Position numbers and translations under genes: made by a program. A stretch of DNA of 64,000 nucleotides from an uncultured Prevotellaceae bacterium. GTDB lineage: Bacteria; Bacteroidota; Bacteroidia; Bacteroidales; Muribaculaceae. The notes beneath the pieces are model-generated. The model saw only the letters and a program-made list of their open reading frames with translations, searched no databases and was not told the origin of the DNA. Shown here piece after piece: positions 16,854 to 44,621 of the stretch. The stretch is from NCBI GenBank assembly GCA_900318345.1, contig ONKD01000013.1:47420-111419 (forward strand), written 5' to 3'. Within the stretch, counting starts at the first letter, position 1, and every line of letters begins with the position of its first letter.

Positions 16854-16933
16854 CTTGTAGACCACCTCAATTAAAAGGCATAATTTGACCAAGATAATTT
16901 AATATTTAATTCGGGAGTTAATATATTACGAAC

Positions 16934-28257: not shown

Positions 28258-28268
28258 TTGGTCTATTG

Positions 28269-29492: not shown

Positions 29493-29498
29493 GGTTTG

Positions 29499-30528: not shown

Positions 30529-32313
30529 ATGTTTAAGATCATACCATTCGAGCAGAAATCTTTATGGGATGAGACAGTCAACTCATTCAAGAACTATGAT
30601 ATTTATTATTTCCATGGTTATGTAGATGCGTTCAGAATCCACGGTGATGGAGAGCCAATCCTCATATATTATGAGTCAAATTATTTGCGAGGAATATACG
30701 TTTCTATGAAACGAGATTTGTCCTTGTTGCCTTTTACAAATGGGATGATTAAACCTGGAGAATGGTTTGATTTGACATCGCCTTATGGCTATGGGGGGTG
30801 GTTGTTTGAAGGTGAACTGACTGATGAAGAGTTATTCTCATTCAATAAAGAATATCGCTCCTATATGCTTGTTCACCATTATGTGTGCAATTTTGTTCGT
30901 TATAACCCGGAATTGCATAATGCTGAAATTATGAGGCCTTTGGGGTGTGTTGCTGATTTGGGTAAAACTGTTAGTATTGATCTCAGCACCAAGGATGCTA
31001 TATGGAATAATATCATTAGTCAGGGTCGGAACAAGATAAGGAAGGCCATTAAAAATGGTATTACTATCAAACATAGTAAACCGAATCGAGAATTGATGAA
31101 AATTTTCAAGGAAATTTATGACATGACAATGAAACGTGATCATGCTATTGAGTATTATTTCTTTGAAGATACATTCTATCAATCACTGTTGGATAATTTG
31201 ATTAATTATACAGAATTATTCTATGCATTAAAAGATGATAAAGTGGTAGCTGTTTCGATTATGTTATATACCAATGGTCGGATGCATTATCATTTATCTG
31301 GAACGTTGAGTGAATATCGCAATCTAGCTTCCACTAATTTATTGCTATATGAGGCTGCTCTTTGGGGAAATAGCATGGGTTTAAAATCGTTCCACCTAGG
31401 AGGAGGTTTGGGATCCGGAAATGATAATCTGTATAAATTTAAATCTTCCTTTAATAAACAAGGTGATAATCAATTTTCGATAGGGAAAGAGATTTTTAAT
31501 AATGAAATGTATGATCAGTTGGTGAGCTGGCGGGAAGATCAGGATGCGCAATTCGATAAATCATCTTCATTTTTTCCTGTTTATCGTCAGAGCTCTGAAA
31601 ACCAAAATGAACAAATAATAACTATCCATAATTCGAATATTAAGAGCGTAGATAAGGATATTCCTAAGAAAATTGCTGTCTATGGCGCTGGCGGACTGGG
31701 GCGTGAAGTGGCTGGTGGCATCCAGCGCATCAACAGTGCCAACAAAGAGAACTGGGAATTTATTGGTTTCTATGATGATAACTTGGAGGTTGGCGCCCAG
31801 GTATCCCATTATGGTAAGGTGTTGGGCGGCATGAATGACCTGAACGCTGTCGACGAGCCGCTTGCTCTGGCCATTGCCGTTGGCTCACCTCAAATCCGCA
31901 AGCAGATTCGTGAGCGCATCACTAACCCCAACATCTATTTCCCGAATCTTATCGCACCCTCTTTCAAGGTCTTGGATCCTCAAACCTTCAAGATGGGGCA
32001 GGGTAATATCATTCAAGATAGCTGCAGCGCCACCTGTGATGTTACTGTTGGTGATTTCAATGTCTTCAACGGAGCCAACGTCTTGGGGCATGATGTCGTT
32101 ATCGGCGATTTCAATGTGCTCATGCCAAGCGTTCATCTTTCTGGTGCCGTCGAGGTGGGCAACTGTAATCTCCTGGGTGTCGACAGTGTGGTATTGCAAA
32201 TGGTCAAGATCGGTAATAACGTCACTCTAGGTGCGGGCAGCGTGCTCATGGTTAAGCCCAAGGATGGTAACACCTATATCGGCGTGCCTGCCAAAAGGTT
32301 TGATTTTAAATAA
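30529..32313 (+). CDS. Fusion of a FemAB-like acyltransferase and a PglD-like acetyltransferase
   Basis: A 594-residue two-domain protein. Residues 1 to about 350 look like a FemAB-type GNAT domain (SQGRNKIRKAIKNG near 164-177, MHYHLSGTLSEYRNLASTNLL near 252-272, GLGSGNDNLYKFKSSF near 293-308), a fold that transfers amino acids or other acyl groups. From about residue 381 (IAVYGAGGLGREVAGG) to the end it is a complete PglD/NeuD-like protein: a Rossmann-like N-terminal part and a left-handed beta-helix of hexapeptide repeats ending YIGVPAKRFDFK. The second domain is a paralogue of the separate gene at 39133. DNA before about 31670 is AT-rich and after it GC-rich, so the fusion point coincides with a composition break. 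Confidence 0.85.
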   Translation: MFKIIPFEQKSLWDETVNSFKNYDIYYFHGYVDAFRIHGDGEPILIYYESNYLRGIYVSMKRDLSLLPFTNGMIKPGEWFDLTSPYGYGGWLFEGELTDEELFSFNKEYRSYMLVHHYVCNFVRYNPELHNAEIMRPLGCVADLGKTVSIDLSTKDAIWNNIISQGRNKIRKAIKNGITIKHSKPNRELMKIFKEIYDMTMKRDHAIEYYFFEDTFYQSLLDNLINYTELFYALKDDKVVAVSIMLYTNGRMHYHLSGTLSEYRNLASTNLLLYEAALWGNSMGLKSFHLGGGLGSGNDNLYKFKSSFNKQGDNQFSIGKEIFNNEMYDQLVSWREDQDAQFDKSSSFFPVYRQSSENQNEQIITIHNSNIKSVDKDIPKKIAVYGAGGLGREVAGGIQRINSANKENWEFIGFYDDNLEVGAQVSHYGKVLGGMNDLNAVDEPLALAIAVGSPQIRKQIRERITNPNIYFPNLIAPSFKVLDPQTFKMGQGNIIQDSCSATCDVTVGDFNVFNGANVLGHDVVIGDFNVLMPSVHLSGAVEVGNCNLLGVDSVVLQMVKIGNNVTLGAGSVLMVKPKDGNTYIGVPAKRFDFK

Positions 32314-32333
32314 AGAAGTAAATCCTAAAAAAT

Positions 32334-33092
32334 ATGGAAACCAACTATAATCCCTTTTCACTCGCTGGCAAGACGGTGCTCATCACCGGTGCTTCATCAG
32401 GCATAGGCCAAGCAACGGCTATCGCTTGCTCACGCATGGGCGCTCGTGTTGTCGTGACCGCACGCAACCAGGAGCGTTTGCAGCAAACCTTCAGCCAACT
32501 CAACCCCGCTGTCGAGGGCCACATGCAGCAGCTTGCCGACCTGACTTCACAAGACGAGTTAGAAAACCTGCTCACGATGCTGCCACCGCTTGACGGTGCG
32601 GTATTGTCTGCCGGCAATTCGACGACCCTGCCCTTGCAGTTTGGCTCTCGCGAGAAGTTTGACGAGATGTTCAATGTCAACTTCTTTGCTCCGGTTGAAT
32701 TGTTACGCCTCTTATACAAGAAAAAACGCCTCAACAAGGGAGCCTCTGTCGTTTTGCTTGCTTCAATCGGCGGCACCCATAGCTTCATGCCGGGCAATGG
32801 TGTGTATGGGGCATCCAAGGCGGCTCTCAACTCAATCATGAAATATGCCGCTCGTGAGTACGCTTCACGCCGGGTAAGGGTCAACAGCATCTGCCCGGGT
32901 ATGGTTGACACTCCTCTCATCCATCGGGGAACAATCACCGAGGAGCAACTGGCCGAGGACGCGAAGAAGTATCCCCTGGGACGCTATGGTGTGCCCGATG
33001 ATATCGCTAACGGGGCTCTTTTCCTCCTCAGTGACGCTTCAAGCTGGCTCACGGGTCACGATTTGGTGATCGATGGCGGTTTTTCCATATGA
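32334..33092 (+). CDS. Short-chain dehydrogenase, FabG-like
   Basis: A 252-residue classical SDR: cofactor loop TGASSGIG (residues 18-25), NNAG-like LSAGN at about 91-95, and the catalytic set S144, Y158, K162. The C-terminal LSDASSWLTGHDLVIDGGF is the usual FabG-like ending. FabG enzymes reduce 3-ketoacyl-ACP to 3-hydroxyacyl-ACP with NADPH. In this setting, directly before two ACPs, an acyl ligase and a FabH-like ketosynthase, reduction of a beta-ketoacyl-ACP is the most likely role. A sugar-nucleotide ketoreductase cannot be excluded. It begins 20 bases after the FemAB-PglD fusion gene. Confidence 0.82.
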   Translation: METNYNPFSLAGKTVLITGASSGIGQATAIACSRMGARVVVTARNQERLQQTFSQLNPAVEGHMQQLADLTSQDELENLLTMLPPLDGAVLSAGNSTTLPLQFGSREKFDEMFNVNFFAPVELLRLLYKKKRLNKGASVVLLASIGGTHSFMPGNGVYGASKAALNSIMKYAAREYASRRVRVNSICPGMVDTPLIHRGTITEEQLAEDAKKYPLGRYGVPDDIANGALFLLSDASSWLTGHDLVIDGGFSI

Positions 33093-33107
33093 TTTTTTGG
33101 CACATCT

Positions 33108-33138
33108 TTTGCAGTTTTAAAAAATAGGTGTACTTTTG
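33108..33138 (+). promoter_or_regulatory. Internal promoter before the first ACP gene
   Basis: TTTG at 33108-33111, exactly 19 bases, then TACTTTTG at 33131-33138: a perfect Bacteroidetes TTTG-N19-TAnnTTTG promoter, 58 bases before the ACP start codon. It would let the acyl-ACP module be transcribed separately from the rest of the locus. Confidence 0.75.
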
Positions 33139-33196
33139 TGGCTGTTTTTTACTAAAGTGACTATTCTGCTTATTTGAGAAGAACGCAATACAAGCT

Positions 33197-33427
33197 ATGA
33201 ATATAAATGAATTTATAGAAAATTTTGCTGATCAGTTTGATGAGACTGATGTGGCATCTTTTACCCCTGAGACCAAATTCAAGCAACTTGACGAATGGTC
33301 ATCATTGACCGCTCTCTCTATCATCGCAATGGTTGACGATGAATATGATGTCATTATTAAGGGTAATGATATCTTGAATTCTGAGACAATTCAGGATTTA
33401 TACAATATTATTGAAAAGAAGCAATAA
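33197..33427 (+). CDS. Acyl carrier protein (copy 1, SSL-type)
   Basis: A 76-residue acidic four-helix ACP. The phosphopantetheine site reads DEWSSL with S36 as the expected attachment serine. The aspartate of the usual DSL motif is replaced by serine. It is a close relative of the ACP at 39938 (shared NxxxFIENFADxFDETD opening and EEYDV segment). It probably carries the acyl chain built or loaded by the neighbouring ketosynthase, reductase and ligase. A good promoter lies just upstream and a second, different ACP follows 20 bases downstream. Confidence 0.88.
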   Translation: MNINEFIENFADQFDETDVASFTPETKFKQLDEWSSLTALSIIAMVDDEYDVIIKGNDILNSETIQDLYNIIEKKQ

Positions 33428-33447
33428 TTTGTTGCTCTTTCTTTTGA

Positions 33448-33678
33448 ATGGAACAGCGGGTTAAAGCAATCATCGCCAGGGTCTTGAATGTCGAGATCGG
33501 CGCTATCACCGACGACCTCTCATCAGGAGATATTCCTCAATGGGATTCTGTCGGCAACCTAGCAATAATAAGTACCATTGAGCAGGAATTGGACATTGAG
33601 TTCCCGCTCGAAGATTTATTCGATCTGACCTCAGTACGCTCACTCGTCGACGAGGTCAATCAGCTGATGAATGTTTGA
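33448..33678 (+). CDS. Acyl carrier protein (copy 2, DSV-type)
   Basis: A 76-residue ACP with the phosphopantetheine site QWDSVGNL (S34), helix II LAIISTIEQELDIEFPLEDL, and the usual acidic character. It is not closely similar to its neighbour at 33197. Its end overlaps the start of the acyl-AMP ligase by 8 bases, which suggests translational coupling and that this ACP is the ligase's partner: the ligase would activate a free acid as acyl-AMP and load it on S34. That pairing is inference from gene order. Confidence 0.88.
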   Translation: MEQRVKAIIARVLNVEIGAITDDLSSGDIPQWDSVGNLAIISTIEQELDIEFPLEDLFDLTSVRSLVDEVNQLMNV

Positions 33679-35137
33679 TGCTCCCCACAGCCAAGTGCTT
33701 CGCTTGATCGCGGCACATGCTGTAAACACCCCCGATAAGGTCGCCCTTGTCTCGGGATCACGTCGTGTCACCTACGCCCAATTGGCAGCCAATGTCGAGG
33801 GCGCGGCAGCCTATCTACATGCCCATGGAATACAGCCCGGCGACCACATCCTGTTGTCGGCTCAAAAGGAACTGGAGTTTGTCTATCTCTATTTGGGCGC
33901 CCATCTATTGGGTGTTGTCAACGTTGTAGTCGATGCTGCGGCTCCACGAGAGCGCCTGGATTACATCGTGGGGATTGTCAAGCCCGTAGCCCTGTTCGGT
34001 ACAGCCGTTGATGCCACCGGCTATAATTTTACGCCTTTCAACGAGGTTACTTTCGACAACACTGCTCTAGATAGCAAGGTTTTGCCATCCCTCAAACACA
34101 CCGACGTTGCCGACGTGATGTTCACCACAGGAACCACCGGCGTGCCTAAGGGAGTGTACCTTTCCCATGCTAATATCGCCGGCTCTGCCAGCAATACCAA
34201 TGGTTTCATTGGCACTTGTGCCCACGATATCGAGGCTTTGGCCTTGCCGTTGAGCCATTCTTTCGGTCTAGGCCGTTTGCGCTGTGTGCTCACCGTTGGG
34301 GCAACGCTGGTTCTTGTCGGTAACTTTGCCAACCTCAAGGTCTTCTTCAATGTCATTGCCCAGGAACACGTGACTGGATTTGGCATGGTTCCCGCCGTGT
34401 GGCAATACATCAAGCGACTGAGTGGCAAGCGGATAGGGCAGTTTGCCGACCAATTACGGTATATCGAGATTGGCAGTGCGGCTTTGCCTGTCGAGGATAA
34501 GCGCTTGCTCATGGAACTGTTCCCTCACACCCGCATTTGCATGCACTATGGACTCACCGAGGCCTCTAGAGCCATGTTTTGCGAGTTCCATGAGAGCGCC
34601 GATAACCTTGAATCCATCGGGCATCCGGCCTCCAATCTGGTCGAGGTGTGCATCCTTGATGACCAGGGCGAGCCTGTCGCCGATGGCATCGACGGGGAGA
34701 TCTGCGTGAGGGGCAACATGGTCGTTTCATCCTACTTTTTGGATACCGATAACGATGGCAGTTTCTTTGGCGATTGGTTCAGGACAGGCGACTGGGGCCA
34801 TCGCGGTACAGACGGCTGTTACTACTTGACTGGCCGCAAAAAGGAATTAATCAATGTGGGCGGAGAGAAAGTCAGCCCTGTCACCATCGAGAGAGCCATT
34901 ACCTCGCTCGGAGTGGCCGATTGCGCTTGCATTGCCATCCCTGACCCTAACGGCGTGCTTGGTGAGGTGCCCAAGGCATTCTTGCTCAAGGGTGGTGTCG
35001 AGATCGACATCGATGAGCTCAAGCAAAAACTCTCGCAGTTGCTTCCGCCTCACGAGATCCCCGTTCAATGGGAATGGGTGGATGAATTGCCTCGCACATC
35101 ATCAGGCAAGATCCAGCGACTCAAATTGAAAAAATAA
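33671..35137 (+). CDS. Acyl-AMP ligase (ANL superfamily)
   Basis: A 488-residue adenylate-forming enzyme. The phosphate-binding loop is FTTGTTGVPK (residues 151-160). Further motifs are MHYGLTEASRAMF (A5-like region), WFRTGDWG (A7), LTGRKKELINVGGEKVSP (A8) and the C-terminal catalytic lysine in SSGKIQ (K480). It activates a carboxylic acid with ATP and transfers it to CoA or an ACP. The 8-base overlap with the ACP at 33448 points to ACP loading. It is a single adenylation module without condensation domains, so not an NRPS. The acid substrate is unknown. Confidence 0.9.
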   Translation: MFDAPHSQVLRLIAAHAVNTPDKVALVSGSRRVTYAQLAANVEGAAAYLHAHGIQPGDHILLSAQKELEFVYLYLGAHLLGVVNVVVDAAAPRERLDYIVGIVKPVALFGTAVDATGYNFTPFNEVTFDNTALDSKVLPSLKHTDVADVMFTTGTTGVPKGVYLSHANIAGSASNTNGFIGTCAHDIEALALPLSHSFGLGRLRCVLTVGATLVLVGNFANLKVFFNVIAQEHVTGFGMVPAVWQYIKRLSGKRIGQFADQLRYIEIGSAALPVEDKRLLMELFPHTRICMHYGLTEASRAMFCEFHESADNLESIGHPASNLVEVCILDDQGEPVADGIDGEICVRGNMVVSSYFLDTDNDGSFFGDWFRTGDWGHRGTDGCYYLTGRKKELINVGGEKVSPVTIERAITSLGVADCACIAIPDPNGVLGEVPKAFLLKGGVEIDIDELKQKLSQLLPPHEIPVQWEWVDELPRTSSGKIQRLKLKK

Positions 35138-35148
35138 CACATGATAAT

Positions 35149-36210
35149 ATGTCACAATTAACGATTAACAATGTTCGCATTGCGGGTATGAGCGCATGCG
35201 TCCCTGCTACAGTCGAGGAAAACCTCAGTCTGCCCATCTACAAGGAGCAGAGCGATGCCCTCAAAGTCATTGCATCAACCGGCATTGAGCGCCATCACAA
35301 GGTGGATGCGGGAACGACCGCCTCTGATCTCTCTGTTAAGGCGGTCGAGGCCCTTCTTGAGAATATGGGCTGGCAGCCACAGGATATTGACTGTTTTGCC
35401 TATGTGTGCACGTCAAGGGATTATATCGCTCCACAAACGGCTTGCGTGCTTCAGGACCGCCTCAAGTTGCGCAGCGACTGCTGTGTGTTTGACCTTCCCT
35501 TCGGTTGCTCAGGCTGGGTTTACGGCATGAGCATCGTTGGCTCGCTCATGTCCCATGGCACATTCAAGCGTGCTATCCTGGTCGCAGCCGAGACCAACAC
35601 CCAAAACCGCAACCCGCTAGACACGACCGTGCGCCCGCTCTTCGGCGACGCAGCTACTGCAACGGCCCTGGAGTATGACGAGCAGCGCGCTCGCCCAATG
35701 AATTTCATGTACGGTGTCGATGGCAGCGGTTTCCAGGCTGTGTGGGCACCTTATGGTGGAATGCGCAATCCTGTCACGCCCGAGGCTTTGCAGGAAAAGG
35801 AAGTCGCACCTGGCGTTTTCCGCCGCGATGTGGACATGGTTGTCAACGGCATGGACGTCTTCGGCTTTGCCATCAAGCGTCCGCCGCAATCTCTCAAGGA
35901 GCTCATAGCCACATTCAACATCGATGTGGAAACCGTTGACTTGCTGTTGCTGCACCAGGCTAACAAGTTCATCGATGAGAAAATACGCAAATCAGTGAAG
36001 ATACCGCCCGAGAAAACCCCCTATTGCTTGGAGGAATACGGCAATGTCACCAGTGCCTCAATCCCGTTGACCATGGTTTCGCGTTGCCGTGAGACCCTAG
36101 CCGGGGAGGATCGTCATTGTCTGGCATGTGGCTTTGGAGTTGGTTTGGCATGGGCCAGCATGGAGTTTTATGCTGGTGATGTGAAAATCAGTGAGGTAAT
36201 CACTTACTAA
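35149..36210 (+). CDS. FabH-like 3-oxoacyl-ACP synthase III (copy 1)
   Basis: A 353-residue ketosynthase III with the full catalytic triad: C120 in LPFGCSGW, H269 in LLHQANKF and N299 in EEYGNVTS. FabH-type enzymes condense a small acyl-CoA or acyl-ACP with malonyl-ACP, or make C-O/C-N bonds in specialised pathways. The position after a ligase and two ACPs and the divergence from housekeeping FabH (about 330 residues) suggest a dedicated role in making the decoration's acyl group. It is paralogous to the gene at 40284. Confidence 0.9.
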   Translation: MSQLTINNVRIAGMSACVPATVEENLSLPIYKEQSDALKVIASTGIERHHKVDAGTTASDLSVKAVEALLENMGWQPQDIDCFAYVCTSRDYIAPQTACVLQDRLKLRSDCCVFDLPFGCSGWVYGMSIVGSLMSHGTFKRAILVAAETNTQNRNPLDTTVRPLFGDAATATALEYDEQRARPMNFMYGVDGSGFQAVWAPYGGMRNPVTPEALQEKEVAPGVFRRDVDMVVNGMDVFGFAIKRPPQSLKELIATFNIDVETVDLLLLHQANKFIDEKIRKSVKIPPEKTPYCLEEYGNVTSASIPLTMVSRCRETLAGEDRHCLACGFGVGLAWASMEFYAGDVKISEVITY

Positions 36211-36230
36211 CCCTAATTTGAGGTAAAACT

Positions 36231-37331
36231 ATGGCTCAATTCATCAATACAAACAAGGAATATTACTGGGGCGACTGGTACTTCAAGGAGCATGTGATGG
36301 CCGATAACTTCAATTACAAGGCCCACAAAAAGGAACTTTCACCCTACTATGAGCAGCATGGCTTCAAGGTCTCGATGATGTTTGCCGACTTCTTCTCGCA
36401 AATCAACGGCATTCACAGCGATCGCTACCTGTCGATGGACGTTTACTATTTCTTCGTCGTTCCGGCGCTCAACCGCTATGACTTCATCAATGCTTATCTC
36501 GATAAGAACATCTATACCGAGTTGTTCCCCAATGTGAAGCAGCCCGCGACCATCGTCAAGAACATCCATGGCCATTTCTATCGTGACGGCAACGAGATCA
36601 CCTTCGACGAGGCTGTGGATATCGTCAGCCATGCTGACATGGAATTGATGATTAAGCCCACAGTCGAGACCTGTAACGGTGATGGGGTAGAGCAATTGGA
36701 CGATCGCGACCCCAGCCACCTGAAGGCTCTGTTTGACCATTATAATCTCAATTTCATCGTTCAGGAGAAAGCCAAACAGCATCCCGAGATCCAGCGTGTC
36801 AATCCCACATCATTGAACTCGATGCGCCTCTATACTTATCGCAAACTGGACGGCACCTACGCCTTCCTCTATCCTTATGCGATGCTGCGATTTGGCGGCA
36901 AGGGCGCCATCAAGGACAACACATCTAAGGGTGGCGGAACTTGTCTGATTGACGAGAATGGACTCGTCGATGATAAGGTGTACCGCTTCAAGAGCCTTGA
37001 GGTGTCCTCGCTCAAGCGTGAGACCGGAGTTGAGAATCTTGTCATTCCTTACTACCAAAAGGTGATTGACACACTGCTCAATGCCCACAAGCGCTTACCT
37101 TACTTCGATTATGTGGGGTGGGATGTCACTGTCGCCCCCGATGGCGAGCCCCTGCTCATCGAGTTTAACCTCGTGCCGGGCATTGAGGGTCCGCAGATTA
37201 TGGCCGGCCCCATGTTTGGTCCATACCTCGATGAGGTAGTTGACCGCGCTCGTCAGGTTGTGTGCGAGAAGGCTCAAGCCAACAAAAAGACCTTTGGCAA
37301 GGGTTCAGCGTTCTATCTGCACATGCAGTGA
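36231..37331 (+). CDS. Sugar-transfer-associated ATP-grasp protein
   Basis: A 366-residue ATP-grasp enzyme of the type found in polysaccharide clusters. It has LMIKPTVETCNGDGVEQL (about residues 143-160), NFIVQEKAKQHPEIQRVNPTSLNSMRLYTYR (around 183-213, given here only as key elements VQEK, NPTSLNSMR) and the metal/ATP-site DVTVAPDGEPLLIEFNLVPG near 298-318. ATP-grasp enzymes form amide or related bonds through an acyl-phosphate. In this locus it could couple an acid to an amino sugar or amino acid, but the bond it makes is unknown. It lies 20 bases after the first ketosynthase gene and 22 before the hydrolase gene. Confidence 0.82.
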   Translation: MAQFINTNKEYYWGDWYFKEHVMADNFNYKAHKKELSPYYEQHGFKVSMMFADFFSQINGIHSDRYLSMDVYYFFVVPALNRYDFINAYLDKNIYTELFPNVKQPATIVKNIHGHFYRDGNEITFDEAVDIVSHADMELMIKPTVETCNGDGVEQLDDRDPSHLKALFDHYNLNFIVQEKAKQHPEIQRVNPTSLNSMRLYTYRKLDGTYAFLYPYAMLRFGGKGAIKDNTSKGGGTCLIDENGLVDDKVYRFKSLEVSSLKRETGVENLVIPYYQKVIDTLLNAHKRLPYFDYVGWDVTVAPDGEPLLIEFNLVPGIEGPQIMAGPMFGPYLDEVVDRARQVVCEKAQANKKTFGKGSAFYLHMQ

Positions 37332-37353
37332 TCCCAACAGATTAAAAACTCAA

Positions 37354-37935
37354 ATGATGACCATACACCAGATCGTGAACTCGATTTTTAACTCCTGTAG
37401 TTATGTACTCACACAGGACAAGCGGTCATGGCTGGTGGATTGTGGCGATGTGGATCAAATCCTGCCCCTCATTGACGGCAAGTTGCAAGGTGTATTGCTC
37501 ACCCATGCTCATTTTGACCACATCTATGGCTTGAACAACCTGGAATCTCTTTTCCCTGGTGTACCCGTTTACACCGTCATGGCGGGTTTGAACGGATTGA
37601 TGAGTGATAAACTCAATTTTTCAAGGTATTATGGTGAGCCCTTCATCTTTGATTCGCCCGATAATGTCAAACTGGTGAATGATGGAGACAGCATAAGCTT
37701 GTTTGATGGCGTTGAGATTAAAGCCGTTGCTACTCCGGGACACAGTCCGGGATGTGTGACATGGTTGACCAGCAATGCCATCTTTACGGGCGATAGCTAT
37801 ATCCCTGGCGTGAAGACGGTCGCCAACCTCCCTCATTCCGATAAGGATTTGGCCTTGAAAAACGAAGCGTTGATACGGCAGATGGTCGAGAACCGGTCAA
37901 TCTATCCCGGTCACGCAGCTAGTAATGAAATTTAA
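37354..37935 (+). CDS. Metallo-beta-lactamase-fold hydrolase
   Basis: A 193-residue MBL-fold protein with the zinc motif THAHFDH (residues about 52-58), a later histidine in ATPGHSPGC, the bridging aspartate in IFTGDSYIPG and a final histidine in YPGHA. The fold is that of glyoxalase II-like thioesterases. In an acyl-ACP cluster a thioester hydrolase or editing function is plausible. The open frame extends upstream to 37240 inside the ATP-grasp gene, but the ATG at 37354 starts the domain properly. The gene is 15 bases before the aminotransferase gene. Confidence 0.85.
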   Translation: MMTIHQIVNSIFNSCSYVLTQDKRSWLVDCGDVDQILPLIDGKLQGVLLTHAHFDHIYGLNNLESLFPGVPVYTVMAGLNGLMSDKLNFSRYYGEPFIFDSPDNVKLVNDGDSISLFDGVEIKAVATPGHSPGCVTWLTSNAIFTGDSYIPGVKTVANLPHSDKDLALKNEALIRQMVENRSIYPGHAASNEI

Positions 37936-37950
37936 TTATACAATAATAAT

Positions 37951-39093
37951 ATGGCTAATAACAAGATTCTTCTATGCCTCGCCCACATGAGTGGACAGGA
38001 AATGAAGTACATTCAAGAAGCTTTTGACACTAACTGGGTTGTGCCTTTGGGCCCCAATGTCAATGCATTCGAACAGGATCTCGAGAAATTGTGCGGTGAG
38101 GGAAAACATGTAGTAGCACTGAGTGCCGGTACAGCTGCCATCCATCTGGCGCTGGTTAATCTGGGCGTTGGACCTGGCGATGAGGTGATTTGCCAGTCAA
38201 TGACATTCTCGGCAAGTGCTAACCCTATTGTGTATCAAGGGGCTACACCGGTTTTCGTGGACAGCGAGCCAGGCACTTGGAACATGGACCCCAACTTGCT
38301 CGAGGTGGCTATCAAAGACCGCATTGCTAAAACGGGCCGCAAACCCAAGGCTTTGATTCCTGTCTATCTATATGGTATGCCCGCTATGATTGACGAGATC
38401 ATGGAGATTGCCCATCGTTACGAGATTCCCGTTATCGAGGACTCAGCCGAGGCGTTCGGCTCTCGCTATCGGGGCCGTTTGTGTGGCACCTTCGGTGATT
38501 TTGGCATCATGAGCTTCAATGGCAACAAGATGATTACCACCAGCGGTGGCGGCGCTTTGATTTGCTCCGATGAGGCAACCAAGAAGAAAACCATGTTTTA
38601 TGCCACTCAGTCACGAGAACCCATGCCCTATTATCTCCACAAGGAGATAGGTTATAACTATCGCATGAGCAACATTTGTGCAGGCATTGGCCGAGGCCAG
38701 ATGTTTGTGCTGGATGAGCACCTGGCCCATCACAAGCACCTGTGTGAACGATATGTTGAACTCTTCGCCGATGTTGACGGCATCACGGTTCACACCAATT
38801 TGGACGAGCGTTCCGACAGCAACTACTGGCTCAACACCATCCTGATTGAACCCGACAAGACTGGTACTGACTACGAGACCGTTCGTCAGCATCTCGATGC
38901 TTGCGATATCGAGTCCCGCCCGTTGTGGAAACCCATGCACACCCAGCCTGTGTTCTCAGGTGCTCCGGCCTATGTCAATGGCGTGAGCGAGCAACTGTTT
39001 GCCAAGGGCTTGTGCTTGCCTAGCGGACCTTGGGTCAGCGATGAGGATGTAGAGCGCGTGGCACGTGAGATTATCGCTTGCTGCAAGAAATGA
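37951..39093 (+). CDS. DegT/DnrJ/EryC1 sugar aminotransferase, PglE-like
   Basis: A 380-residue PLP-dependent aminotransferase with GTAAIHLAL at residues 60-68, VIEDSAEAFGSRYRG with the pyridine-binding D164, and the Schiff-base lysine K193 in FNGNKMITTSGGG. The sequence style matches PglE/WcfR-type enzymes that aminate UDP-4-keto-6-deoxy-HexNAc to the 4-amino sugar using glutamate. It is followed 39 bases later by a PglD-like acyltransferase gene, the same order of reactions as in bacillosamine synthesis. The 4-amino product would be the acceptor for the acyl group made by this module. Confidence 0.92.
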   Translation: MANNKILLCLAHMSGQEMKYIQEAFDTNWVVPLGPNVNAFEQDLEKLCGEGKHVVALSAGTAAIHLALVNLGVGPGDEVICQSMTFSASANPIVYQGATPVFVDSEPGTWNMDPNLLEVAIKDRIAKTGRKPKALIPVYLYGMPAMIDEIMEIAHRYEIPVIEDSAEAFGSRYRGRLCGTFGDFGIMSFNGNKMITTSGGGALICSDEATKKKTMFYATQSREPMPYYLHKEIGYNYRMSNICAGIGRGQMFVLDEHLAHHKHLCERYVELFADVDGITVHTNLDERSDSNYWLNTILIEPDKTGTDYETVRQHLDACDIESRPLWKPMHTQPVFSGAPAYVNGVSEQLFAKGLCLPSGPWVSDEDVERVAREIIACCKK

Positions 39094-39132
39094 TGACATT
39101 ATAACTAACAGCATTACATTATATTACACAGC

Positions 39133-39774
39133 ATGAATATAGCAATCTATGGCGCCGGTGGCTTTGGCAAAGAAGTGGCTTGCCTCATCGAGAGGATAAA
39201 CCGCGAGAATGGTGACTGGCATTTGATAGGATTCTTTGATGACACTAAACCCGCCGGAACCCCTGTATCGCGCTATGGCAAGGTCCTGGGTGACATGAAC
39301 ACCCTTCTGGCAGTCAATGAACCCCTGGCTGTCGCTTTCGCCATCAATGAGAATAAAGCGGTGCGCCGCATCCGTGAAGCAATCACCAACGAGAACATTA
39401 CTTTCCCCAACTTGATTGACCCCTCTTTGTTCTATGTGGACCCCTTGACGGTGACTATAGGCGAGGGCAATATTATTCAGAATCATTGCATGATTTCTTG
39501 TGATGTCAAGATAGGTAACTTCAACCTAATTAATGACCATGTCGTTATCGGCCACGACAACGTCATCGGTGATTACAACGGCCTCATGCCTGGCGCCCAT
39601 CTTTCAGGTGGTATTACGATTGGCGACAGCAATTTGCTGGGCGTTGCCAGTGTGGTACTCCAGGGCATGAACATCGGTGATGGCGTCACCCTTGGCGCTA
39701 ACAGTGTCCTCATGACACAGCCCAAGGATAATAGCACCTATCTGGGTGTGCCGGCACGCAGGTTTGATTTTTAA
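39133..39774 (+). CDS. PglD/NeuD-like sugar N-acyltransferase
   Basis: A 213-residue protein with an N-terminal sugar-nucleotide binding part (MNIAIYGAGGFGKEVACL) and a C-terminal left-handed beta-helix of hexapeptide repeats (HVVIGHDNVIGDYN, the catalytic histidine probably in GHDN). PglD acetylates the 4-amino group of UDP-4-amino-4,6-dideoxy-GlcNAc with acetyl-CoA. Relatives in other clusters use acyl-ACP or other acyl donors. The neighbouring aminotransferase supplies the amino sugar. The C-terminal domain of the protein at 30529 is a paralogue with the same ending (YLGVPARRFDF here). Confidence 0.88.
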   Translation: MNIAIYGAGGFGKEVACLIERINRENGDWHLIGFFDDTKPAGTPVSRYGKVLGDMNTLLAVNEPLAVAFAINENKAVRRIREAITNENITFPNLIDPSLFYVDPLTVTIGEGNIIQNHCMISCDVKIGNFNLINDHVVIGHDNVIGDYNGLMPGAHLSGGITIGDSNLLGVASVVLQGMNIGDGVTLGANSVLMTQPKDNSTYLGVPARRFDF

Positions 39775-39801
39775 TCCCTCCGTAACATCTCTTGAAGCGA
39801 T

Positions 39802-39820
39802 ATTTCCACCTACTGGAAAT
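39802..39820 (+). terminator. Small hairpin after the PglD-like gene
   Basis: A 7-bp inverted repeat (atttcca / tggaaat) with a 5-base loop lies 28 bases after the stop codon, followed by gttaaagatgtgg rather than a U-run. It may weaken read-through before the promoter at 39859-39892. The evidence is modest. Confidence 0.3.
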
Positions 39821-39858
39821 GTTAAAGATGTGGAGAAAAATTAAAGATATTTCAAATC

Positions 39859-39892
39859 TTGGTGCAACATTAAGAAATTTTATGTATTTTTG
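39859..39892 (+). promoter_or_regulatory. Possible internal promoter before the third ACP gene
   Basis: TATTTTTG at 39885-39892 is a full match to the Bacteroidetes -7 element, 46 bases before the ACP start codon. The nearest -33 candidate is TTG at 39859-39861, 23 bases upstream, longer than the usual 19-20. The neighbouring ACP at 33197 has the same arrangement with a perfect promoter. Confidence 0.5.
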
Positions 39893-39937
39893 CACCCCGT
39901 AAAAATATTTGAGGTATTTTTGCGTTATAGTTTTGTG

Positions 39938-40171
39938 ATGAATTTAGAACAATTCATAGAGAATTTCGCAGATCTGTTTGATGAAACAGATCCTGACACT
40001 ATAAATGCCACAACTCAATTCAAGGATCTTGAGGAATGGTCATCACTGCTCGCATTGTCTGTTATTGCCATGATTGACGAGGAATATGATGTTGAGTTTA
40101 GAGGTGATGACATTCGTGGGAGCAATACCGTTGAAGACCTGTACAACATTGTTAAATCAAGAGTAGAGTAG
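39938..40171 (+). CDS. Acyl carrier protein (copy 3, SSL-type)
   Basis: A 77-residue ACP with the phosphopantetheine site EEWSSL (S36), again with serine instead of aspartate before the attachment serine. It is the paralogue of the ACP at 33197, with matching NFADxFDETD and EEYDV segments. The frame is open upstream to 39890, but ATG 39938 gives the normal ACP start (MNLEQFIENF). It precedes a FabH-like gene by 112 bases, mirroring the ACP-ketosynthase pairing of the first half of the module. Confidence 0.87.
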   Translation: MNLEQFIENFADLFDETDPDTINATTQFKDLEEWSSLLALSVIAMIDEEYDVEFRGDDIRGSNTVEDLYNIVKSRVE

Positions 40172-40283
40172 GGCATGATGGATAAGTGACAGATTTTTCC
40201 TTAGCAATGGCTAGCGGAAAGTTTGTTCTGTATAGTTAAGTCAAGAGCTCTTCTTAACCCGTTAATCTTATCGCCTGTTTCTT

Positions 40284-41333
40284 ATGGCTAAAGTTTCTTT
40301 TCATGGAGTCGGCATTAAGGCTTTAAGCGCTTGTGTGCCTGGTGATGTCGTGTATAATAGGGACTTAGGCTATCTCATCCCTCAGGAAGAGATTGATAAA
40401 GTCATTGATAATATCGGAATCGAGCAAAGGCGCATTGCCTCCAGTGATGTGACCGCCAGTGATTTGTGCTTCAAGGCTGCTCAAAAACTCATGGACGATA
40501 ACAACATCGACCCCGCGAGTATTGATGTGCTCTTGTTCATGAGCCAAACCCAGGATTACCGCATTCCTGCTACATCGTGCATTTTGCAACATCGTTTGGG
40601 ACTGCCAAAAACCACGCTCTGTTTCGACATCTCACTAGGCTGTTCTGGCTATCTGTTTGCATTGAGCACGGCGTTTGCCTATGCCTCGATCGAGGGAATC
40701 AATCGTGTGCTCCTTCTCGATGGTGAGACGTTCTCCAAGATTGTTAACCGCCGCGACAAGGTGGACTGGCCACTTTATGGCGATGCGGGTACCGCGACGC
40801 TAGTCGAGAAGGGCGATTTTGGCGACTCTACCTTTATCCTCAACACCGATGGCAGCGGTGAGGATGCGATTAAGATTCATGCAGGCATGCGTCATCCCAT
40901 CACGCCTAAGTCATGTGTCGAGCGGGAACAGGAGGATGGCAACATCCGCAACGACCTTGAGGTATTCATGGATGGCATGGACGTGTTTAATTTCGCCATC
41001 AGCAAGGTGCCTCGTTGCGTCAAGGAATTGCTCAGCGTGACTGGCAAGACTGTTGATGATGTGGATTACCTTGTTTTCCATCAGGCTAACCGATTCATGA
41101 TGGACTTCTTTGTGAAAAAACTCAAGATGAATCATGATAAGGTTCCTTATTGTATCCACAAGTACGGGAATACGAGCAGCTCGTCCATACCCCTGACGAT
41201 TGCCAGCGAATTGCCTGGCAAGCTCGATGGCGATCACACTGTGGTGATGAGTGGATTTGGTGCTGGCTTGAGTTGGGGTGCGGTCATGATGCAGATGCAC
41301 GACTGTAAAGTTCTACCCGTTGTTGATTATTAA
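40284..41333 (+). CDS. FabH-like 3-oxoacyl-ACP synthase III (copy 2)
   Basis: A 349-residue ketosynthase III with an intact triad: C120 in SLGCSGYL, H266 in VFHQANRF and N296 in HKYGNTSS. It is paralogous to the enzyme at 35149 but well diverged. Two ketosynthase III enzymes in one locus would allow two separate condensations, or one condensation and one special transfer such as the C-O/C-C bond formation seen with glyceryl-ACP in tetronate pathways. Its last base overlaps the first base of the VOC gene (TAATG), so they are probably translated together. Confidence 0.9.
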   Translation: MAKVSFHGVGIKALSACVPGDVVYNRDLGYLIPQEEIDKVIDNIGIEQRRIASSDVTASDLCFKAAQKLMDDNNIDPASIDVLLFMSQTQDYRIPATSCILQHRLGLPKTTLCFDISLGCSGYLFALSTAFAYASIEGINRVLLLDGETFSKIVNRRDKVDWPLYGDAGTATLVEKGDFGDSTFILNTDGSGEDAIKIHAGMRHPITPKSCVEREQEDGNIRNDLEVFMDGMDVFNFAISKVPRCVKELLSVTGKTVDDVDYLVFHQANRFMMDFFVKKLKMNHDKVPYCIHKYGNTSSSSIPLTIASELPGKLDGDHTVVMSGFGAGLSWGAVMMQMHDCKVLPVVDY

Positions 41334-41740
41334 TGAACGATTTACTCACATTCCATCACATTGGCATCGCTTGTCGCGACATCGCCAAGTCTTCGGCTTT
41401 TTATCAGTCGATGGGATACAACGTGTTACCGGTAGTTCCCGACCCGTTGCAGCATGTCAAGGTCTGTTTTATGGAAAAGGAGGGCGCTCCGCGTGTCGAG
41501 CTGCTCGAGCCACTGGATGATAAGAGCCCGGTGCTTAGGATACTCGATGCCGTGGGCGTGTCACCCTATCACACGTGCTATGAGGTCAAGAATCTGCAGG
41601 AGGCAATCGCTGAATTACGCCAGCAGCGTTTCATGCTTGTCAATGGTCCTGTTCCCGCTTGTGCATTGGAAAACAGGGAAATAGCTTTCATGTTCAATAA
41701 GAATTACGGGCTCATCGAGCTCGTCGAGGCCTTCAGTTGA
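41333..41740 (+). CDS. VOC-family (glyoxalase-like) protein
   Basis: A 135-residue vicinal-oxygen-chelate protein. It has two beta-alpha-beta-beta-beta units and likely metal ligands in FHHIGIA (residue 7-8 histidine), YHTCYEV (histidine near 81) and GLIELVE (glutamate near 129). It resembles methylmalonyl-CoA epimerases and small glyoxalases. VOC proteins of this kind accompany FkbH-like genes in some clusters, but their reaction there is not established. It overlaps the upstream ketosynthase by one base and the downstream GT2 by one base (TGATG). Confidence 0.82.
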   Translation: MNDLLTFHHIGIACRDIAKSSAFYQSMGYNVLPVVPDPLQHVKVCFMEKEGAPRVELLEPLDDKSPVLRILDAVGVSPYHTCYEVKNLQEAIAELRQQRFMLVNGPVPACALENREIAFMFNKNYGLIELVEAFS

Positions 41741-42750
41741 TGTCAACCATCCTGTTGTCTTACATTGTGCCGGTTTACAACACTGCGCCCTATCTAGGCA
41801 AGTGCCTGCAATCCCTGGTCAATCAGGGCTTGCAGCACGATGAGTATGAGATCATTGCCGTTGATGACGGCTCCAGTGACAATAGCCGTGAGGTGATCGA
41901 GAACTTTGCTAAGGATTATCCTCAAGTTCGCTTAATTACCCAAGCCAATGCTGGCGTTAGCGCGGCACGCAACAAGGCTTTGGATTTGGCTCAAGGCCGC
42001 TTTGTCCAGTTTGTTGACAGTGATGACTATCTTGAGCCTAATGTCATGGGGCCGCTTGTGCATCGTGCCGTTGGCGAGAATCTCGATGTGCTCATGTTTA
42101 ACTTCAAGTGGGTGGATGCTAGCGGCAATCTCATCAAGGTATCAAAGCCCAGGGAAGATATGCGCACAACACCGGCCATGGGTGGCGTGGAATTCTTGGA
42201 AAAATTCACGCTGATGCAGTATGTGTGCTGGTACCTGGTGAGTCTAGAGCACCTTAACCGCTTGAACCTGAGGTTTGATACCTCGCTCATCGCCTGTGAG
42301 GACGGTGCCCTGGCCGCTCAGTTCCTGCTGCATGCCCGTCGGGTGGCTTTCAGTGAGGTGGCTCCTTATTGTTACGTCAGCCGCAGTGATAGCGCCATGA
42401 ATAACACTAATCGAGATCACTTGCGTCGTCGCATTTTCAGTCAGATTGATGCTGCCGCCTTAATTGACCGCTCCATCAAGGAATTTGAGGCACAAACAGG
42501 CGGTAATTCCCCGGCAAGTGTTGCGGGATTGAGGAATCTGTACCTCTTTTTCAGCATGACGAAATCCCTGACCTGCGGCTGTGTGGACGAGACTGTCGCC
42601 CACATGCGCGAGTTGGGGTTATATCCCTTCCCCTGTATCGGGTATGAAATTAATTACGACGGCAAGAAGTGGAAAATCCTTCACGGCTTGATGATGCACC
42701 CTAAGGTTTGGGCTTTGTTGGGCCGCGTTTATGGAATGGTAAGAAACTGA
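41740..42750 (+). CDS. Family 2 glycosyltransferase
   Basis: A 336-residue GT2 enzyme: ILLSYIVPVYNTAPYL, AVDDGSSDNS at about residues 40-49, and the metal-binding FVDSDD at 91-96. It is related in style to the GT2 at 23456 but in GC-rich DNA. It lies within the acyl module, overlapping the VOC gene by one base and followed 2 bases later by the FkbH-like gene, so it may transfer the acylated amino sugar or the next residue. The true start is ATG 41740; a TTG at 41737 precedes it. Confidence 0.88.
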   Translation: MSTILLSYIVPVYNTAPYLGKCLQSLVNQGLQHDEYEIIAVDDGSSDNSREVIENFAKDYPQVRLITQANAGVSAARNKALDLAQGRFVQFVDSDDYLEPNVMGPLVHRAVGENLDVLMFNFKWVDASGNLIKVSKPREDMRTTPAMGGVEFLEKFTLMQYVCWYLVSLEHLNRLNLRFDTSLIACEDGALAAQFLLHARRVAFSEVAPYCYVSRSDSAMNNTNRDHLRRRIFSQIDAAALIDRSIKEFEAQTGGNSPASVAGLRNLYLFFSMTKSLTCGCVDETVAHMRELGLYPFPCIGYEINYDGKKWKILHGLMMHPKVWALLGRVYGMVRN

Positions 42751-42752
42751 CT

Positions 42753-44345
42753 ATGATTACTTTTGTCTATCGCAATCAAACGGTTGAGCCCCTGTTCGGT
42801 GATCAGGGCATTGTTTATTCGGGCTATGATGACATCAGCCAGGTCCCTCAGGACGTGGACAGTTATATCTGGTGTTATCAGGTGCCGGTCAATGCCGACA
42901 GCGCACAGCTGGCACAGGAAATCGCATCCTATCGCGACAAGCTTGATCTGGTACTATCCAAGGCCGATAATAATAAACCGTTTATCATATTCTCCCTGGT
43001 TAATCTGTACCCGCTAAAGCTCACTGGCGATGATGTCGCTGTCGATCATGCGGTGATGGATTTCAACCGCCACGCGTCTCTCTTGGCCGAGCAGCATCCT
43101 CACGTCAAGTGGGTGGATTTCTCTGAATTCACTTCACGTTATGATGCCTGGTCGCTGGTCAACTGGAAATACTACCTCATGTCACAATCCCTGATCAATC
43201 CCAAACTGGCACACGATTTCCAGGATTGGTGGCAGCAGGTGGAGAGAGGACTGGCCTTGAAACGCAAGAAATGCCTCGTGCTCGACCTCGATAACACCTT
43301 GTGGGGTGGGGTCCTCGGTGAGGATGGCGTTGACGGCATCAAGCTGGGCGGCGACTATCCCGGTAAGGCTTTTTCTTACTGGCAGCGGGCCTTGGTCCAA
43401 CTGGCCCACAACGGTGTGATTTTGGCCGTTTGCAGCAAGAACAACGAGACCGATGTGCAGGAGGCTTGGGATTGCAATCCGTTCATGGAACTCAAGCGAG
43501 AGCACTTCAGCGCCTGGCGCATCAACTGGACTGATAAGGTGACCAATATCCGTGACATCGCCGAGGAACTCAACATCGGCTTGGACAGTATTGTTTTCAT
43601 CGACGACAGCCCGTCAGAGCGTGAACTGGTCAAGCAGATGTTGCCACAGGTGACTGTACCCGATTTCCCCGAGAAACCCTACCAGCTCATGCCGTTCTTC
43701 AAGCAGCTGGTTGAGCGCTATTTCCGCATCTATGCCGTTACGCCTGAGGACCGCAACAAGACCCAGCAGTACCAGGCCAATGCCATGCGCAAGGCCCAGC
43801 AGGCGCGATTTGCCGACATGGATAGTTACCTGCGCAGCCTGGCGATGGAGATTGATATCATTCCCGCCGACGATTTTAACTTGCCGCGCATCGCTCAGAT
43901 GACGCAGAAGACCAACCAGTTTAACCTCACCACACGGCGTTACACCGAGGCCGAGGTCCGCCAGCGCTTGAATGATGGTTGGCGCGTTTATTGCATGAGT
44001 GTCAGGGATCGTTTTGGCGATAGTGGCGTTACTGGTGCCATCTTCCTGGAGCCAATCGACTGGGACACCGTGGGCATTGACTCGTTACTGCTCAGTTGCC
44101 GCGTTCTGGGCAAGGGCATCGAGGAGGCTTTCATGGGCTCGATTCTCAACCTGCTCCATGAGGAGGGCGTTCAAAAGGTCGTTGCCGACTATATCCCCAC
44201 TGCCAAGAATGGCCAGACGGCCGACTTCTACGACCGCATGGGCATGGAGTGCATCAGCATTGCCGATGACAGCTCTAAGCATTATGCGATGTCGTTAGAC
44301 AAAGTGTTTGAATTGAAGGATTATTATAATATAAAGGTGCTATGA
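42753..44345 (+). CDS. FkbH-like acyl-ACP loading enzyme (HAD + GNAT-like)
   Basis: A 530-residue FkbH-like protein. An N-terminal region (about 1-165) precedes a HAD phosphatase domain with DLDNTLWGG (residues 178-186), CSKNNETDV and FIDDSPSEREL, and a C-terminal GNAT-like domain with RFGDSGVTGAIF and LLSCRVLGKGIEEAF. Characterised FkbH enzymes take 1,3-bisphosphoglycerate, remove phosphate and place glyceryl on an ACP; some relatives load lactyl-type groups. The next gene, an ACP, overlaps by 4 bases (ATGA) and is the obvious partner. The frame is open from 42708, but ATG 42753 fits, being 2 bases after the upstream stop. Confidence 0.92.
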   Translation: MITFVYRNQTVEPLFGDQGIVYSGYDDISQVPQDVDSYIWCYQVPVNADSAQLAQEIASYRDKLDLVLSKADNNKPFIIFSLVNLYPLKLTGDDVAVDHAVMDFNRHASLLAEQHPHVKWVDFSEFTSRYDAWSLVNWKYYLMSQSLINPKLAHDFQDWWQQVERGLALKRKKCLVLDLDNTLWGGVLGEDGVDGIKLGGDYPGKAFSYWQRALVQLAHNGVILAVCSKNNETDVQEAWDCNPFMELKREHFSAWRINWTDKVTNIRDIAEELNIGLDSIVFIDDSPSERELVKQMLPQVTVPDFPEKPYQLMPFFKQLVERYFRIYAVTPEDRNKTQQYQANAMRKAQQARFADMDSYLRSLAMEIDIIPADDFNLPRIAQMTQKTNQFNLTTRRYTEAEVRQRLNDGWRVYCMSVRDRFGDSGVTGAIFLEPIDWDTVGIDSLLLSCRVLGKGIEEAFMGSILNLLHEEGVQKVVADYIPTAKNGQTADFYDRMGMECISIADDSSKHYAMSLDKVFELKDYYNIKVL

Positions 44346-44569
44346 ACTTAGAAAACCAAGTGTTGGAAATCATGCGGGAGGTATTCGGCATTGCCGATAT
44401 CACCCCCGAGGTGTCACAGAAAAACTGTGAGCGATGGGACTCTTTGCGTCACCTCACGATGGCTTCTGAACTCGAAGACGCGTTCGACATCGAGCTCGAG
44501 CCCGAGGAGATTGCCGAGATGACCGACTTCGCCCGTGTCATCAACATGATCAATTCCAAATTGAAATAA
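44342..44569 (+). CDS. Acyl carrier protein (copy 4, partner of the FkbH-like enzyme)
   Basis: A 75-residue ACP with the phosphopantetheine site RWDSLRHL (S34) and an acidic helix II-III (ELEDAFDIELEPEEIAEM). Unlike the copies at 33197 and 39938 it has the normal DSL motif. The 4-base overlap with the FkbH-like gene strongly suggests that it receives the glyceryl- or related three-carbon unit. In the best-studied systems the FkbH-ACP pair is encoded side by side in the same way. Confidence 0.9.
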   Translation: MNLENQVLEIMREVFGIADITPEVSQKNCERWDSLRHLTMASELEDAFDIELEPEEIAEMTDFARVINMINSKLK

Positions 44570-44621
44570 CGGCTGTTTTTTGTCCCTCTTGCAGGGCTCA
44601 GATGATGCCGTATTGCCAACG

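Follow-up and report, generated by a model that had tools for sequence, protein, structure and literature searches.

Dedicated lines that build a short acyl group on an acyl carrier protein (ACP) and end on a 4-amino sugar have precedents in two bacteria. In Flavobacterium psychrophilum, a 3,5-dihydroxyhexanoyl group on Qui2NAc4N is proven by nuclear magnetic resonance (NMR); the authors predict that two ketosynthases (KSs) make it together with an ACP, a ketoreductase, and a PglD homologue, and strains with different R-group genes differ in the antigenicity of their lipopolysaccharide (LPS) (PMC6519341). The viosamine island of Pseudomonas syringae makes an N-(3-hydroxy-1-oxobutyl) 4-amino sugar (PMC3927599). 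Glyceryl groups are known from two further systems: in tetronate pathways, FkbH-like, ACP, and FabH-like proteins act on glyceryl-ACP (PMC7489565), and in Campylobacter jejuni, pseudaminic acid carries 2,3-di-O-methylglyceroyl, a glyceroyl amide in a bacterial glycan (PMC3068675), and the flagellar glycosylation locus includes the FkbH-domain gene cj1302 and the 'epimerase' gene cj1301 (PMC7099621). Here we analysed an acyl-ACP locus within 64,000 nucleotides (the window) of contig ONKD01000013.1 from an uncultured Prevotellaceae bacterium. With a probability of roughly one-half (about 0.52), we read it as a dedicated acyl-ACP supply line that N-acylates a 4-amino-4,6-dideoxy sugar of a surface polysaccharide and whose distinctive part is primed with glycerate.

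An earlier note on this DNA had already proposed a dedicated acyl-ACP line ending on a 4-amino sugar, and the F. psychrophilum wfp and P. syringae vio precedents support it; its mention of a 3,5-dihydroxyhexanoyl amide in Flavobacterium also agrees with the NMR work. By the same precedents, the general idea of such a line is not new. Like the window, wfpC-G with pglE/F combine two KSs, an ACP, a ketoreductase, a PglD homologue, and a PglE-type aminotransferase in a Bacteroidota polysaccharide locus that also has a short PglC-like priming transferase. Judged by the available description of wfp, the FkbH-like protein, starter ACP, acyl-AMP ligase, VOC enzyme, and ATP-grasp protein occur only in the window, and the acyl group is 3,5-dihydroxyhexanoyl there, whereas the window would use a glyceryl starter. 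The vioA, vioS, vioR, vioB, and acp genes likewise provide a KS of the KSIII type, a ketoreductase, an ACP, a VioB-type N-acyltransferase, and an aminotransferase, but with one KS, one ACP, no FkbH, a dTDP sugar, and a flagellin glycan. This wfp/vio-type gene set (KSIII, ACP, ketoreductase, PglD/VioB-type N-acyltransferase, aminotransferase) is present in one sugar locus of the window with its catalytic residues intact (KS C-H-N; Y-K of the short-chain dehydrogenase/reductase, SDR; ACP Ser; PglD His).

The FkbH-like protein, stand-alone ACP, and FabH-like protein of the window correspond to the tetronate 'glycerate-utilisation' genes mad7, mad8, and mad16; those genes have a polyketide synthase (PKS) chain as partner and a tetronate ring as product, whereas the window triad has a ketoreductase and sugar N-acyltransferases alongside. 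With C. jejuni the window shares the presence of FkbH-domain and 'epimerase' genes within a glycan locus, and the glyceroyl-type amide on an amino sugar is the counterpart of the group proposed here. The group described in C. jejuni is 2,3-di-O-methylglyceroyl, whereas the one proposed for the window is a chain-extended acid. The C. jejuni amide and cj1302/cj1301 may belong together, and the occurrence of both makes glyceryl loading for glycans plausible. We take fabH2 and ACP genes to be part of that flagellar locus as well.

In the proposed pathway, whose substrates, products, and two-line layout we infer, the FkbH-like protein would, by analogy with tetronate biosynthesis, charge ACP4 with glyceryl from 1,3-bisphosphoglycerate, a glycolytic intermediate; the resulting thioester may then be epimerised at its alpha carbon by the VOC enzyme. 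The cysteine of KS2 would accept the glyceryl group from ACP4 and condense it with malonyl on ACP3 to 4,5-dihydroxy-3-oxopentanoyl-ACP, which the SDR would reduce to 3,4,5-trihydroxypentanoyl-ACP (a 2-deoxypentonoyl group). PglD could then move this acyl group to the amine that the PglE-like aminotransferase installs at position 4 of the sugar, the acceptor probably being UDP-Qui2NAc4N. Along a second line, the AMP ligase would charge ACP2 with an acid and KS1 would condense it with malonyl on ACP1; the second PglD domain might use the product, and the ATP-grasp and metallo-beta-lactamase-fold (MBL) proteins might tailor or edit. A glyceryl unit, one of the types that the earlier note thought might be combined with the hydroxyacyl group, is more likely to start the chain than to be a separate add-on.

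We observed gene content and order, intact catalytic residues, a clade-level coupling of KS2 with FkbH, and three position-specific ACP types. All proteins that the earlier note had named (SDR, four ACPs, ligase, two KSs, FkbH, VOC, MBL, PglE-like, PglD-like, and ATP-grasp proteins) are real open reading frames (ORFs) with family matches. The C-H-N triad, claimed for both window KSs, is present in them and in all 125 KSs examined, and the SDR catalytic Y and K are kept in 51 of 51 aligned rows, with S in 50. Likewise, the DxDxT aspartates and threonine are found in 69/69 FkbH rows, the window's included (a few records are repeated), the attachment serine in the four window ACPs, and H-E-H-E at four aligned VOC positions, which we take to be metal ligands, in 27/27 rows.

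Loci from genome searches carry L-numbers; the searches covered 393 genomes of the order, among them the source genome of the window, as well as named genomes, in which a scan with a three-sequence KS2 alignment yielded 50 loci. The set of 125 KSs came from L031-L070, L100-L101, L105-L154, L165, L169, and the window, excluding KSs shorter than 300 residues; the duplicate records L128 (= L034) and L136 (= L100) were dropped from the KS, ACP, and PglD sets alike. We labelled a KS as coupled when an FkbH gene lay no more than four genes away with no other KS between, and set aside 10 KSs near contig ends. The 36 KSs with an FkbH beside them, KS2 included, form one clade (SH-like approximate likelihood-ratio support 99), and all 79 KSs without FkbH fall outside it. 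The label changes once on the KS tree against a shuffled mean of 31, and none of 500 shuffles was as low. In a mixture-model tree of 48 hand-picked rows, the KS2 clade has a support of 100/97, and a single change was found in 200 of 200 bootstrap trees. A narrower label of two genes either side gave five changes because the cassette FkbH sits three genes from KS2. KS1 lies in the KS1 branch and KS2 in the FkbH-coupled branch, neither in a provisional FabH-like branch of this tree, from which primer use is not readable; the name is provisional because housekeeping FabH is a long branch. In two-KS loci, L035, L038, and L146 of Flavobacterium reichenbachii among them, one of the KSs belongs to that branch. 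The position of both window KSs outside it does not favour an acetyl-primed dihydroxyhexanoyl chain, and the 3-hydroxybutyryl or 3,5-dihydroxyhexanoyl chain suggested by the earlier note is, as an ordinary acetate-derived chain, not supported.

Seen from FkbH, the coupling appears to be a special case. Among 28 FkbH-search loci other than the window's, a KS occurs within 1.5 kb only in L072 and L073 (records of L100 and L034; FkbHs at 50-52% identity). None of the remaining 26 has a KS in that flank, in which 20 of them have an ACP. A flank of this length does not reach KS2 in the window itself, but L101-L104, four of these 26 that were viewed over 15-20 kb, have no KS there either. FkbH with an ACP seems to be the common form, and FkbH with an ACP and KS2 the special one.

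The ACPs sort by position. In a tree of 96 ACPs (L147, L148, and L150-L154 left out; few columns, hence weak inner forks), extension, FkbH-starter, and ligase-starter types separate with three label changes against a shuffled mean of 38. The single 'extension' label within the FkbH-starter type belongs to L138, an operon with KS2 between FkbH and the ACP. The pairing of the FkbH-like loader with one ACP, claimed for the window, recurs in 35 of 37 FkbHs examined, which are directly followed by an ACP of the FkbH-starter type, the exceptions being L138 and a second, distant FkbH in L139. Of the window ACPs, the two extension-type members, ACP1 and ACP3, share 59% identity, against 25-30% for the other pairs; in a quick tree, ACP3 joins the extension ACPs from other FkbH loci (support 87), and ACP1 is unplaced. 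This typing suggests that the window holds two lines, ACP2/ligase/KS1/ACP1 and ACP4/FkbH/KS2/ACP3, which would share one SDR and two PglDs. One or two ACPs are present in each of the 27 FkbH loci outside a cassette shared by nine other genomes (described below), and up to four in the cassette loci.

Kin without the ligase line usually show the order ACP-SDR-KS2-(VOC)-FkbH-ACP4. PglD precedes this minimal set in L118, L121, L122, L126, and L100 (= L136, Odoribacter lunatus), and PglD-less kin have a hexapeptide transferase (L131, L139) or an AAC(3)-like N-acyltransferase (L132) close to ACP4. A minimal cassette is also carried by Bacteroides fluxus (L134). Such sets would be in keeping with a route in which glyceryl is loaded, condensed once with malonyl, reduced once at the keto group, and passed to a sugar amine, the expected product being a 3,4,5-trihydroxypentanoyl group. 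In L149 (PglD-FabD-ACP-SDR-KS2-FkbH-ACP4), a FabD-type transacylase directly precedes the extension ACP, which points to malonyl as the extender. The SDR is not near the cassette in L135, L137, L138, and L140, and these loci would yield a keto acid or borrow a reductase from elsewhere. Separately, FabD-like ORFs were read in L039 and L052, and an FkbM-type methyltransferase gene lies inside the kin cassette of L034 (1703-2806), with a KS1-type gene on one side and the SDR on the other; the acyl group may be methylated there.

Several observations weigh against our reading of the locus. Because the KS2 query favoured them, KS2-like sequences are over-represented in the KS sample, and 10 of the 36 coupled KSs belong to the window and the nine-genome cassette, whose KS2s are 79-89% identical to the window's. 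One of the two KS2 subclades has no VOC gene, nor does L149, and the enzyme is thus not required. An Asn signature of PglD, described below, is missing from L146-L148 (Flavobacterium reichenbachii, Photobacterium, Butyrivibrio) despite KS, ACP, and PglD genes, and the two cassette PglD clades are weakly sister (86/68), a tree that allots neither to a line. Our reading also does not account for the ATP-grasp, MBL, and family 2 glycosyltransferase (GT2) proteins.

Two rounds on one chain might also account for the two KSs, although we consider this somewhat unlikely. KS2 and then KS1 would extend glyceryl-ACP4, with a ketoreduction each time, to a 3,5,6,7-tetrahydroxyheptanoyl-type group, and the ligase line would be a side supply or salvage. 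In its favour, four FkbH loci (L114, L117, L125, L133) have one KS1-type KS and one KS2 with a single extension ACP and a single PglD, and the 3,5-dihydroxyhexanoyl precedent was assigned by its authors to two KSs (PMC6519341). The window's KS1 clade stands weakly (83/68) beside the KS1s of the FkbH loci L114-L117 and of the FkbH-less L040, a placement compatible both with further elongation of a single chain and with a separate line. One chain would not, however, need the two extension ACPs, two starter ACPs, and two PglD domains of the window, each of which forms its own clade with kin; these favour the two-line layout.

The FkbH-like protein and ACP4 could instead serve direct glyceryl transfer, for example by the acyltransferase-3, with KS2 as an acetyl-primed KSIII making a 3-hydroxybutyryl-type group. 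The scarcity of KSs beside the FkbHs of the order (two of 28 within 1.5 kb) and the glyceroyl amide of C. jejuni are in line with this, yet each of the 36 untruncated KSs of the KS2 clade has a neighbouring FkbH and none falls in the FabH-like branch, and an acyltransferase-3 is labelled in few FkbH-KS2 loci outside the cassette (L115, L116, L126), which makes direct transfer unlikely. A route to a small molecule, in which FkbH would supply a methoxymalonyl- or tetronate-type unit and the sugar genes would be there by coincidence, is very improbable. The triad of FkbH, ACP, and FabH-like protein is that of tetronates (PMC7489565), and the L034 cassette holds the methyltransferase mentioned above, but none of 20 scanned window proteins matched an acyl-CoA dehydrogenase, 3-hydroxyacyl-CoA dehydrogenase, methyltransferase, or modular-synthase family (neither a PKS family nor the two dehydrogenases and O-methyltransferase of a methoxymalonyl-ACP operon), and many kin cassettes adjoin priming transferases, PglD/PglE, or glycosyltransferases.

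What looks new about the glycerate-primed line is the starter, through a KS2 clade coupled to FkbH beside sugar N-acyltransferases, the acyl-ACP principle being already known. More tentatively, we propose as a novelty that a dedicated KSIII clade extends a glyceryl starter from glycolysis to 3,4,5-trihydroxypentanoyl and that two acyl lines, each with its own starter ACP, extension ACP, KS, and PglD, stand side by side in one polysaccharide locus of a Bacteroidales group. In the open-licence literature searched, we found no glyceryl-primed line feeding a sugar N-acyltransferase, no match for FkbH together with O-antigen, and, for trihydroxypentan- with polysaccharide, no bacterial-glycan title among the matches listed. 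To our knowledge, 3,4,5-trihydroxypentanoyl (2-deoxypentonoyl) sugar amides are not a known class. If the reading is true, the loading of glyceryl by FkbH, a subject of work on antibiotic pathways, would be tied to the acylation of surface glycans in Bacteroidales. The reading predicts a specific acyl group, and the KS2 clade with FkbH and ACP4 would give a genomic rule for glycans that may carry it. The differing LPS antigenicity of F. psychrophilum strains with different R-group genes suggests that acyl variety likely matters for antibody and phage recognition.

The acceptor is probably UDP-Qui2NAc4N, as suggested by a long PseB/PglF-type dehydratase elsewhere in the genome (contig C65) and by the aminotransferases of L033 and L063, which adjoin such dehydratases and are 57-58% identical to the window's. 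The aminotransferase of L100 scores best with the DesI model, below that model's cut-off, and the acceptor sugar may therefore vary among kin. The PDB relatives of the window PglD are VioB, a pilin glycosylation protein, PerB, and UDP-N-acetylbacillosamine N-acetyltransferase. Asn stands just before the canonical His position, which we take to be His134 of C. jejuni PglD, in 40 of 51 PglDs near KS or ACP genes against 3 of 34 others, and the His itself is kept in 5/51 against 20/34. The rows counted are related and most controls were viewed over only 1.5 kb each side, so that Fisher tests exaggerate the contrast; PglD-like ORFs under 150 residues and the short loci L072-L099 and L155-L164 were left out. 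Because L146-L148 lack the Asn signature, we rejected it as a general indicator of acyl-ACP use and regard it as the mark of a lineage. Nor could a PglD tree (most controls, L171-L200 except L178, and a few divergent rows omitted) allot one PglD to each line, as it did not separate them by starter type.

The search for the same gene set and order in other genomes, suggested in the earlier note, gave nine loci of named metagenome-assembled genomes, L105-L113. The shared order is PglD fusion, SDR, ACP1, ACP2, ligase, KS1, ATP-grasp, MBL, PglE, PglD, ACP3, KS2, VOC, GT2, FkbH, ACP4, and acyltransferase-3, and such conservation excludes chance. By BLAST labels, five of the nine are complete (L105, L107, L108, L109, L111) and four have a gap: L106 ends at a contig edge, L110 and L113 lack an ACP1 and a VOC call, respectively, and L112 has no MBL. 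The records are labelled Muribaculaceae, Prevotellaceae, or Bacteroidales; one title names goat omasum, and the RUG names presumably stand for rumen. The genes downstream look common to the kin loci in length and start, and the cassette thus seems to be an old part of the locus in this group. The N-terminal partner of the first PglD domain varies: FemAB-like in the window and, by reading, in L113 (142-1974), a second PglD in L105 (775-2055), ATP-grasp with HAD in L107 (2-2005), and a PylC-like ATP-grasp in L109 (361-2064). This looks like a recombination border between the variable and conserved halves of the locus. A pairing of two PglC-like priming transferases with two R-groups was rejected as a general rule, as most kin genomes hold one: in L105 and L107-L113, the eight genomes searched, seven have one (69-71% identity), and only L113 has two side by side, as in the window.

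The earlier note had placed the pathway at 31669-44569; this content stands, but the start falls inside the fused protein, whose PglD domain begins at base 31669 (residue 381 of 594) in its C-terminal half, the N-terminal half being FemAB/GNAT-like, and the unit runs past the end to the acyltransferase-3. The features are collected in the table. The PF00550 scores of the four ACPs are 23.1, 37.4, 25.8, and 23.8 bits, and the PF08541 (ACP_syn_III_C) scores of the two KSs 74 and 93 bits. KS1 may be an elongation- or ligase-type KSIII. The closest PDB kin of the AMP ligase are adenylation domains of nonribosomal peptide synthetases (NRPSs) and acyl-CoA ligases, and those of the VOC enzyme include glyoxalases and methylmalonyl-CoA epimerases. 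The MBL protein, whose HxHxDH motif is kept in 17/17 aligned rows, possibly edits acyl thioesters. The ATP-grasp protein has no PDB relative by sequence at E <= 1, and its predicted model is poor (mean pLDDT 55.6).

Table. Features of the acyl-ACP locus in window coordinates, assigned by Pfam scans of 20 window proteins and by TIGRFAM/NCBIfam profiles. Cut-offs in bits: PF00550, 20.8; TIGR01686, 147; TIGR03570, 160.8; TIGR04181, 420.
Feature	Position	Strand	Evidence
PglC-type priming glycosyl-phosphotransferase, short, first copy	27634..28257	+	C-terminal part of TIGR03025
PglC-type priming glycosyl-phosphotransferase, short, second copy	28266..28889	+	C-terminal part of TIGR03025; 71% identity to first copy
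FemAB/GNAT-like domain fused to PglD-type N-acyltransferase domain	30529..32313	+	PF02388, PF13480, PF17836; TIGR03570 150.6 bits (below cut-off)
SDR, FabG-like ketoreductase	32334..33092	+	PF13561, 181 bits
ACP1, extension type	33197..33427	+	PF00550; identity to ACP3; ACP tree
ACP2, ligase-starter type	33448..33678	+	PF00550; ACP tree; 8-base overlap with ligase gene
Acyl-AMP ligase, AMP-binding and C-terminal domain	33671..35137	+	PF00501 (231 bits), PF13193
KS1, KSIII of KS1 branch	35149..36210	+	PF08541/PF08545; C-H-N; KS trees
ATP-grasp ligase (ATPgrasp_ST)	36231..37331	+	PF14397, 99.5 bits
MBL hydrolase	37354..37935	+	PF00753 (Lactamase_B), 57 bits
PglE/LegC-like NDP-4-keto-sugar aminotransferase	37951..39093	+	PF01041 (DegT), 317 bits; TIGR04181 361.6 bits (below cut-off)
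PglD-type N-acyltransferase, Asn149-Gly150 where many relatives have x-His	39133..39774	+	TIGR03570 163 bits (above cut-off); PglD_N with hexapeptides
ACP3, extension-type ACP of KS2 line	39938..40171	+	PF00550; ACP tree
KS2, FkbH-coupled KSIII	40284..41333	+	PF08541; C120-H266-N296; clade tests
VOC enzyme, methylmalonyl-CoA-epimerase type	41333..41740	+	PF13669 (Glyoxalase_4), 79 bits
GT2	41740..42750	+	PF00535
FkbH-like HAD-IIIC glyceryl loader (predicted)	42753..44345	+	TIGR01686 283 bits (above cut-off)
ACP4, FkbH-starter ACP	44342..44569	+	PF00550; 4-base overlap with FkbH
Acyltransferase-3 membrane protein	44580..45638	+	PF01757, 102 bits; after ACP4 in 9/9 kin loci

The source genome comprises 3.17 Mb in 82 contigs. 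FabD (contig C81), FabH (C33), and an ordinary ACP (C77) lie elsewhere in it, as does the dehydratase, and the cassette is therefore dedicated but not self-sufficient; to call the pathway complete, as the earlier note did, was too strong. On contig C37 of the same genome, at about 14136-17876, an open frame of 2421 residues, perhaps a small NRPS, contains two carrier-protein domains and also has a dehydratase-like match. Across the 393 genomes, relatives of KS1 were found in 87 (E <= 1e-40), of FkbH in 28 (E <= 1e-30), of the ATP-grasp protein in six, the own genome included (E <= 1e-30), and close relatives of the ligase in four (E <= 1e-70); the ATP-grasp gene is present in 9/9 of the kin loci L105-L113. 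The other close ligase relatives occur only in L031 (1312-7279), L040 (11740-17437), and L165 (11532-16908), where they sit with an ACP2-like ACP and a LuxE-LuxC fusion (by Pfam for L031, by length and reading for L040 and L165), in L031 also with a transketolase split over two genes. Aeromonas flagellar glycosylation islands are reported to contain an ACP, a 3-oxoacyl-ACP reductase, an AMP-dependent synthetase, luxE, and luxC (PMC7874193).

Upstream in the window, a 340-residue protein at 29496-30518 reads like a pyridoxal-phosphate aminotransferase and had no Pfam, NCBIfam, or PADLOC match at the thresholds used; a PADLOC scan of the ATP-grasp protein gave no match either. The genes at 9844-12612 resemble CDP-glucose synthesis and 4,6-dehydration, followed by an epimerase/reductase. 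Finally, L042-L062 (e.g. L044, L050, L053) contain a separate ACP-KSIII-SDR-GT2 set, widespread in Bacteroidales, whose context does not look like that of the polysaccharide loci.

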